This document shows positions 3,300 through 27,453 of a stretch of DNA of 64,000 nt, in pieces. The notes below the pieces were generated by a model that saw nothing but the letters and a program-made list of their open reading frames with translations, was not told the DNA's origin and did not search any database. The stretch is from Clostridium putrefaciens. Its GTDB lineage: Bacteria > Bacillota > Clostridia > Clostridiales > Clostridiaceae. The DNA is taken from contig NZ_UFWZ01000001.1 in assembly GCF_900461105.1 (NCBI RefSeq), positions 372,001 through 436,000 of the forward strand, in the 5' to 3' direction. Every line of letters begins with the position of its first letter. The first letter of the stretch is position 1. The position numbers were made by a program, and so were the translations under genes.

Positions 3300-4388
3300 A
3301 TGAATGTATTATTTATAGGCGTAAGATGGGATAATGAAGAAGATATAACCTCAGCGCCTCAAAAGATAGGGAATATTCTTTATAATAGACTTTCTAAAGA
3401 TAAAGAAGACTTTTATTTTTATGGATTACAGACAGACGAGTCACCAGGCGAAAATGTAGAATTTCAAAATATAAATGAAAGAGAAGCAAGAGGGGATTTA
3501 AAGCATATATCTTCTTATATAAAAGATAAAGATATAAAGGTCATATATATTGCAAGGTACCACTCAGCCATTGCTCTATATGCTATTTACCTAAAGTTTA
3601 AGCATAAGGTTAAAATAGTTTACACAATGCATGGATTGGTGAAAAAAGAAAAGACTATAAATGGATCCTTTAAGGCAAGGCATGTTTTTATTGAAGGAGT
3701 CTTCTTAAAAAGATGTGATAAAATAATAGCCGTCTCAAAAGACTTAAAATTAGAAGTTCTAAAGTATTATCCTTTGCTTTTAGAAGAAAACATTGAAGTT
3801 ATAAATAACGGTGTAAGCATAATATCCATAAAAGAAGATATAGATATAAGAACTCTTTATAATATTGAATCAGATAAAAATATATTATTTACTGTAGGAG
3901 TAAGGAAGATAAAAAACATAGATATAATATTACAAAGCTTTATAAATAATAAAGGTCTTTATGAAAGTTCTTATTTGTTAGTAACTGGAGAAAAGGATAG
4001 TGAGTACGCTATAGACATAATGGATAAGTATGAAGATTACGATCACATAGTATTTACAGGATATGTAGATACTAATATGATGAATAATATATATAATCAA
4101 ATGGATGTATTCATTCAAATAAGTGAGTTTGAAACTTTTGGTATGTCTATAGTAGAGTCACTTCTTCATAAAAAACATGTTATAATATCATCAGATCTTC
4201 CTATTGCAAAATATTTTAACCAGGATGAAGTTAGATTTTATAATAAGAATGAAGATGATTTATCTTTATTAATATTGGATAGCTTAAGAGATGATGATAT
4301 AAATCAAAAGGGATACGAAAAGGCTAGAGAGTTATTTCATTGGGATAAGATTAAAGAAGATTATTATAATTTGTTTATGAAATTGTAG
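3300..4388 (+). CDS. Glycosyltransferase, GT4 family
   Basis: The ATG at 3300 is preferred over the GTG at 3291 because AGGGGTG lies six bases before it; this gives 362 residues. The GT-B fold is suggested by an N-terminal acceptor half containing YIARYHSA and VYTMHGLV, and a C-terminal half with the E-x7-E-like region around EFETFGMSIVESLLHKK, which binds the nucleotide-sugar in GT4 enzymes. There is no signal peptide, so it probably acts at the cytoplasmic face on a lipid-linked glycan. It starts 12 bases after the polymerase stop, in the same operon. Donor and acceptor are unknown. Confidence 0.88.
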   Translation: MNVLFIGVRWDNEEDITSAPQKIGNILYNRLSKDKEDFYFYGLQTDESPGENVEFQNINEREARGDLKHISSYIKDKDIKVIYIARYHSAIALYAIYLKFKHKVKIVYTMHGLVKKEKTINGSFKARHVFIEGVFLKRCDKIIAVSKDLKLEVLKYYPLLLEENIEVINNGVSIISIKEDIDIRTLYNIESDKNILFTVGVRKIKNIDIILQSFINNKGLYESSYLLVTGEKDSEYAIDIMDKYEDYDHIVFTGYVDTNMMNNIYNQMDVFIQISEFETFGMSIVESLLHKKHVIISSDLPIAKYFNQDEVRFYNKNEDDLSLLILDSLRDDDINQKGYEKARELFHWDKIKEDYYNLFMKL

Positions 4389-25720: not shown

Positions 25721-25922
25721 TTATTTTTTCTTAAATAATAAACCACATTAATATACAATGATACAGATTATTTAAATATAGACAAGTGTGAAACCTTGTA
25801 AAGGGTTTATGCATACCGTATAATATTATTATACTTTAAACATACTTATAAAGTAGTAATTATAAAATACAACTTGTATTTTATAATTTGAAATACTAAT
25901 TAATTAAAAGGAGGTTTTGTTA

Positions 25923-26516
25923 TTGAATGATGAGAAATTTGATGTAAGTTACATATTGTCATTGGCAGAAGAGATGTCTAATAATAAATTAGTGCCCTAT
26001 GAAGATCTACCTCAATATGATCTATTTTTATCACAGGTTATTGATTATTTAAATGATAAATTTGTAGAAGAAAAGTACACAAATAATATAGTCCAAAATT
26101 ACATTAAAAGCGAGGCTATATCAAAGCCGGAAGATAGTAAAAAAAGAGGATATACAAAGCTTCATCTAGCACAACTTTTATTGCTAAGTTATATGAGACC
26201 AGTACTTACAACAGAAGAGATAAGGAAGGTTTTTAGACTAGCATTTAATGATATAAATGATAGGGAAGATGATATAATATCCTTTGAAAAGGCATATAAG
26301 ATATTTTCAGATATACAAAAAGAAAGCGTAAATGAATTTTTAACAGAGCATAGATTTTTTAATCAAGAAAAGTTAGACAGTATAGTATCTGAACTTAATT
26401 TAAAACCAAGTGATGAAGGTAGGATAAAGACCTTTATAATGGTTATGAATCTAATAGCTGAAGCTAGTGTAATAAAGAAAATAGTACAAAAGATAATAGG
26501 CGATTACCACGAATAG
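25923..26516 (+). CDS. DUF1836 family protein
   Basis: The TTG at 25923 is eight bases after AAAAGGAGG and gives 197 residues; the TTG at 25917 is too close to the site. The segment KKRGYTKLHLAQLLLLSYMR followed by LTTEEIRKVFRLAF is the DUF1836 hallmark, and VPYEDLPQYDLFLSQVIDY precedes it. The arrangement resembles a MerR-like winged-helix DNA-binding region, so a regulatory role is plausible but unproven. No signal or membrane segment. A 7-bp stem (TAGGTGG/CCACCTA) overlaps the stop codon but has no T-run. Confidence 0.85.
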   Translation: MNDEKFDVSYILSLAEEMSNNKLVPYEDLPQYDLFLSQVIDYLNDKFVEEKYTNNIVQNYIKSEAISKPEDSKKRGYTKLHLAQLLLLSYMRPVLTTEEIRKVFRLAFNDINDREDDIISFEKAYKIFSDIQKESVNEFLTEHRFFNQEKLDSIVSELNLKPSDEGRIKTFIMVMNLIAEASVIKKIVQKIIGDYHE

Positions 26517-26809: not shown

Positions 26810-26833
26810 ATGGTAGAATACTATGTAATTAAT

Positions 26834-26870
26834 AAAAAGAGTCATGAGACATATAATCTCATGACTTTTG
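26834..26870. terminator. Bidirectional terminator between yvrJ and the HesB-like gene
   Basis: The stem AGTCATGAGA/TCTCATGACT has a 7-base loop, with A-run before and T-run after. It serves both converging genes. Confidence 0.85.
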
Positions 26871-26892: not shown

Positions 26893-27201
26893 TTAGCTAC
26901 AAGAAGAGTTTCCAGCATCTGTAGAGGCCTTTGTCACTATATTAAAGTTATCTCCAAAGATTCCTTTAGTGTGTACTATTTTAGCATCATCAAATAGGAA
27001 TGAAAATTCCTTGTCTGCTACAACCTTTATTCCATTTTCAACAAATATATCATCCTCTGATTGTTGTTCATCCAGAACAACTCCAAAACTAGGACCACCT
27101 CAGCCAAAACCTTTTATAACTATTCTTACCGCATCTTTATTTTTACTGTCTAAAGATTTTTTTAAAGCCATAGAAGTATTATCATCAATATTAAATTTCA
27201 T
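26893..27201 (-). CDS. HesB/IscA-like selenoprotein with in-frame UGA (Sec34)
   Basis: A 102-residue reading frame runs from an ATG at 27201, preceded by AAGGAGG, to TAA at 26893, interrupted only by TGA at 27102-27100. The context is IKGFG-TGA-GGPSFGVVLDE, the place where HesB-like relatives carry cysteine. Eighteen bases after the TGA a 7-bp stem GTTGTTC/GAACAAC with loop TGGAT forms a bacterial SECIS-like hairpin with G bases in the loop. Sequence before and after the TGA belongs to one HesB-like domain (VENGIKVVADKEFSFLFDDA), and the C-terminus is NSSCS. The family has been reported to include selenoproteins. A true nonsense mutation is the alternative, but frame, domain and hairpin all favour selenocysteine. 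Possible role in iron-sulfur or redox chemistry. Confidence 0.88.
27063..27081 (-). promoter_or_regulatory. Candidate bacterial SECIS element
   Basis: On the minus strand GTTGTTC-TGGAT-GAACAAC forms a perfect 7-bp stem with a 5-base loop containing GG. It begins 19 bases after the TGA and lies within the coding sequence, as bacterial SECIS elements do. It would be bound by SelB carrying Sec-tRNA. Confidence 0.8.
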
Positions 27202-27255
27202 TACATTGCCTCCTTATAAAATATATATATTATTAGTTTTCCTTATACCTGAGAA

Positions 27256-27261
27256 ATTATA
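27256..27261 (-). promoter_or_regulatory. Possible -10 of the HesB-like gene
   Basis: TATAAT on the minus strand lies 55 bases before the start codon. The -35 (ATAACT, 17 bases upstream) is poor, so an activator may be needed. Confidence 0.4.
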
Positions 27262-27317
27262 GTGTATTAATAAATGAAAGTTATCCCATATATATAGGGA
27301 ATATTAAATCGCTTCGT

Positions 27318-27332
27318 TACCCCTAGGGGGTA
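27318..27332. promoter_or_regulatory. GC-rich dyad resembling a CsoR-family operator
   Basis: TACCCCTAGGGGGTA has 6-bp arms around a TAG centre and stands out in AT-rich DNA. It overlaps a plus-strand TATAAT (27331-27336). It resembles the G-tract dyads bound by copper, persulfide or nickel sensors of the CsoR/CstR/RcnR family. A second CTAG-centred palindrome, TCCTCTAGAGGA, lies at 27395-27406. The gene controlled is uncertain; the HesB-like gene is the nearest promoter. Confidence 0.45.
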
Positions 27333-27453
27333 TAATGTTATTATATATTAATTAATCTTTAATGTCAAATGATTTAATTTATTAAGTACCTATTTCCTCT
27401 AGAGGAGTAGCATTCCAATTGTTTAGTTTTAAGTGGTTTAATTTACTAAAGTG

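Follow-up and report, generated by a model that had tools for sequence, protein, structure and literature searches.

The window analysed here, a 64,000-nucleotide stretch of the Clostridium putrefaciens genome, carries on its minus strand a frame that runs from an ATG at 27201 to a TAA at 26895-26893 and contains one internal TGA (Table 1). With TGA translated as selenocysteine (U), the predicted product reads MKFNIDDNTSMALKKSLDSKNKDAVRIVIKGFG-U-GGPSFGVVLDEQ...NSSCS. An initial annotation had described a ribosome site, a complete 102-codon frame and a HesB-like domain continuing across this single TGA, and all three were found again in the sequence and in profile matches. Because the gene has its own sigma-A promoter and its own intrinsic terminator, it appears to form a single-gene transcription unit; a shared operon with the upstream peptidase-like gene was ruled out by the same two signals. 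The leader (27202-27317) is unusually long, the operator lying ~115-160 nt before the start codon in this genus, as against roughly 15-55 nt in most other genera. As foreseen in the initial annotation, a simple ORF caller would miss the gene, since a list of ORFs of at least 60 aa under translation table 11 holds nothing for it and gives at this place only a 97-aa antisense frame. That antisense frame, at 26969-27262 (+), covers the selenoprotein gene and could be wrongly annotated by a gene caller. A 199-aa gene at 25917-26516 (+) is convergent to the selenoprotein gene, an adjacency kept in several genera.

Table 1. Features of the selenoprotein locus (window positions).
Feature	Position	Strand	Evidence
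HesB-like selenoprotein gene, 102 codons, Sec at codon 34	26893..27201	-	Translation with TGA read as U, profile matches, structure model, orthologues
Selenocysteine codon TGA (Sec34), at the first Cys of A-type carriers	27100..27102	-	TGA in 41/41 UGGP orthologues
Bacterial SECIS hairpin GUUGUUC-UGGAU-GAACAAC	27063..27081	-	Covariation, codon bias; lost in Cys homologues
Ribosome binding site AAGGAGG	27209..27215	-	Sequence
Putative palindromic operator TACCCCCTAGGGGTA, CsoR/CstR-family type, 7 nt after the -10 box	27318..27332	-	Motif search, orthologue conservation
Sigma-A promoter TTGACA-N17-TATAAT, 12/12 consensus	27340..27368	-	Sequence; kept in operator-bearing orthologues
Intrinsic terminator, stem 26866-26840 then T-rich tail	26831..26866	-	Sequence

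The genome (3.1 Mb, 99.85% complete) encodes the selenocysteine machinery that the initial annotation had expected elsewhere in it, namely one selA (4.7e-160), one selB above cut-off (380 bits), one tRNA-Sec (selC; 64 bits, anticodon TCA) and a selD that adjoins selA and selB. The selD gene reads MDVKLTQYAKTSG-TGA-AAKIG, with an in-frame TGA at 3986-3988 (-) of locus L001, and the organism's own selenophosphate synthetase is predicted to be a selenoprotein itself. In the other two genomes of the genus, those of Clostridium algidicarnis DSM 15099 and C. simiarum, the window's gene is 89% and 80% identical and has the same TGA; both before and after this codon, most nucleotide differences within the genus are at third codon positions, and the protein is conserved on both flanks. 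Across the order, relatives are present in 131 of 226 genomes, most with exactly one TGA, and reading the frames of 41 UGGP-clade orthologues gave TGA as the Sec codon in every one. Conservation of the TGA in independent genomes excludes a sequencing error, which counters the alternative of a misread TGT or TGC. The claim that the UGA stands where homologues have Cys is borne out by the alignment, which gives Cys or Sec at codon 34: Cys is found there in related forms (L024, L036, L042, L121 and L125-L127), and Sec34 aligns with the Cys of GGGCSGF in ErpA-like proteins. A TAA at the Sec site of some relatives was also considered and was ruled out, being the natural end of shorter proteins. Judged by these comparisons between genomes, the gene is almost certainly a real selenoprotein gene.

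The hairpin starts 18 nt after the TGA, with a 7-bp stem and a 5-nt loop (UGGAU) that starts 25 nt after the TGA. The bacterial SECIS model has a loop of 3-9 nt, a stem of 4-16 bp, a G in the first two loop positions and 16-37 nt from UGA to loop (PMC13188914), and the hairpin agrees with it in loop, stem, G position and spacing. The fold energy of the bare hairpin, -7.1 kcal/mol, is slightly short of the published -7.5 limit; that of 54-66 nt including the hairpin is -14 to -16. When the same peptide is recoded synonymously, 20% of the recodings give a 7-bp stem with a G in the loop under a permissive definition, and the fold energy of the natural sequence ranks in the lowest 4%; the argument from the hairpin alone was dropped as weak. 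The hairpin becomes convincing as a SECIS through its conservation across 41 genes, so that the geometry pointed out in the initial annotation is joined by conservation and covariation. For example, pairs 4-7, the inner four, form in all 41, and at pair 5, 34 genes have U-A and 7 have C-G, the change from Val to Ala (GTT to GCT) always being matched by GAA to GAG; pair 3 is swapped from U-A to A-U in L128. CTG encodes the Leu of the stem-loop in 40 of 40 cases, against 5 of 232 elsewhere in the same frames, and the hairpin is absent from the three Cys homologues examined. This pattern of substitution indicates that the hairpin is a real SECIS, and the sequence evidence strongly supports a step in which SelB on the hairpin would bring Sec-tRNA to the UGA, placing Sec at codon 34 of a protein with the HesB/IscA fold.

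Profile searches with Cys in place of Sec gave matches to TIGR01911 (E 4.5e-13) and NF038090 (E 7.6e-13) and a weak one to Pfam Fe-S_biosyn, all of them below cut-off; the protein's TIGR01911 score of 49.6 bits, against a curated cut-off of 66.35, places it outside the membership of that model. Ten relatives score 41.7-52.2 bits with TIGR01911 or are unlisted and, like the window's protein, reach no NCBIfam cut-off. The clade carries no name in current NCBIfam models, and its genes may therefore be missed or truncated in clostridial annotations. The UxGP motif of HesB-like selenoproteins is present as U34-G-G-P, and the AlphaFold model (pLDDT 77.9) has HI1723, IscA and SufA as its closest PDB matches, a HesB/IscA fold. 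A-type carriers use three cysteines, the first Cys plus CGC. The clade keeps Sec34 and one C-terminal Cys of these three and thus does not have the C...CGC arrangement; the model has this C-terminal Cys in a tail of low confidence, so that a Sec34-Cys101 contact is conjectural. The family of HesB-like selenoproteins was described long ago, with the model TIGR01911 (HesB_rel_seleno) and the motif UxGP (PMC1794560, PMC13188914), so that the kind of protein is not new; the initial annotation was right in calling it a selenoprotein and overstated its novelty. The HesB-like selenoprotein of M. maripaludis was identified by mutagenesis and 75Se labelling, its mutant had no nitrogen-fixation defect, and its function is unclear (PMC11097638). 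A second Sec-HesB is encoded in the genome of C. putrefaciens itself (L021, G000:C1:798351-798521 (-)) and is of the canonical TIGR01911 type, with USGP, the tail GGCSSCSSCS and 92.7 bits; this paralogue has the same SECIS core, UUGUUC-UGGAU-GAACAA. A third HesB subfamily (L112-L114, L121, L125-L127) has a UGGL or CGGI motif, Sec and Cys being exchanged between relatives.

Upstream of the gene lies a conserved promoter-operator that fell outside the coordinates of the initial annotation, was missed there and is more informative. A palindrome of the TACCCCCTAGGGGTA type is expected 0.01 times in the window. The exact pattern TACCC-N5-GGGTA stands upstream of 26 of the 41 orthologues, nearly always right after a TTGACA/TATAAT promoter, and occurs in 0.01% of upstream regions after shuffling; neither the tested Cys homologues nor the second Sec-HesB have it. 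Searching twelve genomes for the pattern gave few further sites; where these share the promoter layout, the genes behind them are mainly trxA-trxB, trxB-glutaredoxin and one NapH-like gene. The same operator and promoter layout is found before trxA-trxB in the window's own genome (C1:2740660) and seven others, and before trxB-grx (glutaredoxin) in two genomes; the operator is thus very probably common to the selenoprotein gene and trxA-trxB. The NapH-like case (L063, G117:C1:2479993) has the operator right after the promoter, before the gene for a 4Fe-4S membrane protein, which neighbours a sulphite/nitrite-reductase-like gene. At L086 (G089:C158), two operators of the same type flank a set of DUF156 repressor, rhodanese and TusA, a CstR-like sulphur operon. 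A second palindrome near 27300-27280 (TTCCCTATATATATGGGATAA) was dropped, as it is not conserved even within the genus, and an Rfam search with a permissive threshold had no relevant match around the gene.

Repressors of the DUF156 family sense Cu, Ni/Co, formaldehyde or persulfide. The genome encodes two DUF156 proteins, the copper CsoR of a copA-copZ-csoR operon and an orphan beside aspS (C1:1887318-1887587). The orphan has the two cysteines of a dithiol repressor, C36 and C65, with NYA replacing the copper His, and these features are conserved in relatives. CstR, the persulfide sensor of S. aureus, is a CsoR-like sulphurtransferase repressor (PMC5480029); two Cys 29 residues apart and no copper His, as in CstR, point by analogy to a thiol or reactive-sulphur signal for the orphan. 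An orthologue of the orphan (at least 58% identity) is present in 26 of 26 operator-positive genomes and lacking from 8 of the 15 operator-negative ones, several of those 8 still having a DUF156 gene beside a P-type ATPase. None of the 8 examined genomes without the orphan has the operator at the selenoprotein gene, and the pattern is at background level in repressor-less genomes; a further 7 genomes have the orphan and no exact operator at the selenoprotein gene. The association gives a Fisher p of 7e-5, uncorrected for relatedness, and since gene loss follows genus lines, the co-occurrence of repressor and operator rests on few independent events. Autoregulation of the orphan is suggested by TACCTGGTATAGGTA after the -10 of its own promoter. 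Together, these data make the orphan CstR-like repressor the probable ligand of the selenoprotein operator. Two genomes (G134:C138:308-853, G136:C73:140129-140677) encode two DUF156 domains in one frame of ~200 aa, an apparent tandem fusion; in these, the HesB homologue carries Cys where Sec would stand and lacks the operator.

Other explanations of the locus were weighed against the same data. An in-frame TGA is a stop by default, and the TGA might be a genuine stop or a sequencing error in a decaying pseudogene, but its conservation across 41 genes, the conserved protein on either side of it, the complete Sec machinery and the covarying SECIS leave this reading with hardly any probability. 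It is also improbable that the copper sensor CsoR binds the operator and that the selenoprotein is a copper-stress protein. CsoR-family operators have GC-rich palindromic cores in common (PMC10318464), and the organism's own copA-copZ-csoR operon does carry a related GC-rich palindrome; however, the copA sites are laid out differently, the operator's partners are trxA-trxB and not copper genes, and the selenoprotein gene has no operator in those genomes of genus g25 that lack the orphan but have DUF156 genes adjoining P-type ATPases.

The proposal that the protein is an A-type Fe-S cluster carrier of the ordinary kind, with Sec in place of one cluster ligand and with a regulation that responds to Fe-S damage under thiol or sulphur stress, agrees with the HesB/IscA fold and family matches and with the position of Sec at the first cluster Cys. 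A classical carrier is nevertheless less likely, since only one Cys remains of the usual C-terminal CGC pair, which leaves two of the three ligand positions of A-type carriers, and in the sister subfamily (UGGL/CGGI) even this Cys is missing; on balance we regard the carrier role as rather unlikely.

Our preferred reading combines Sec decoding, control by the orphan repressor together with trxA-trxB, and a selenol redox role, and we put its probability at roughly 80%. From operator sharing and co-occurrence, we infer one thiol- or reactive-sulphur-sensing repressor over both the selenoprotein gene and trxA-trxB. The strong sigma-A promoter would drive transcription, and the orphan, on TACCC-N5-GGGTA just past the -10 box, would block it, as it would at trxA-trxB; by analogy with CstR, oxidation or persulfidation of C36/C65 may then lead to the selenoprotein and the thioredoxin system being made together. 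Tentatively, we put forward a clostridial regulon that places the thioredoxin system and a two-residue (Sec plus Cys) HesB selenoprotein under one orphan dithiol CstR-like repressor. More speculatively, the protein may handle persulfides or act in selenol/thiol redox reactions, with Sec34 attacking the substrate, the C-terminal Cys resolving the adduct as a selenenylsulfide and thioredoxin re-reducing it, a chemistry to which we give somewhat less than even odds. If this is true, this HesB branch would be a selenol enzyme that is linked to thioredoxin and acts on reactive sulphur or selenium species, and not an Fe-S carrier. In the roughly two decades since HesB-like selenoproteins became known, they have been given no function, and an operator common with trxA-trxB, together with a dithiol repressor, provides a concrete inducing condition to test. 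No link between CstR/CsoR, thioredoxin and a selenoprotein in clostridia was found in the literature searched, which was that readable without subscription.

Compared with known systems, the orphan resembles CstR of S. aureus in its cysteine spacing (C31/C60 in CstR), in lacking the copper His and in a GC-rich palindromic operator, the similarity being only at the DUF156 level. Unlike CstR, it does not adjoin its inferred targets, and these are thioredoxin genes and a selenoprotein rather than a sulphide-oxidation operon. The window's protein shares with the HesB-like selenoproteins of TIGR01911 the HesB fold, Sec at a conserved Cys, the UxGP motif, a bacterial SECIS and anaerobic hosts, whereas its sub-cut-off score, UGGP instead of USGP, single C-terminal Cys and own promoter-operator set it apart from them. 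With the A-type Fe-S carriers IscA, SufA and ErpA, on the other hand, it has in common the fold and the position of the first Cys/Sec, but it has one Cys in place of the CGC pair and scores far under all IscA/SufA/ErpA cut-offs.
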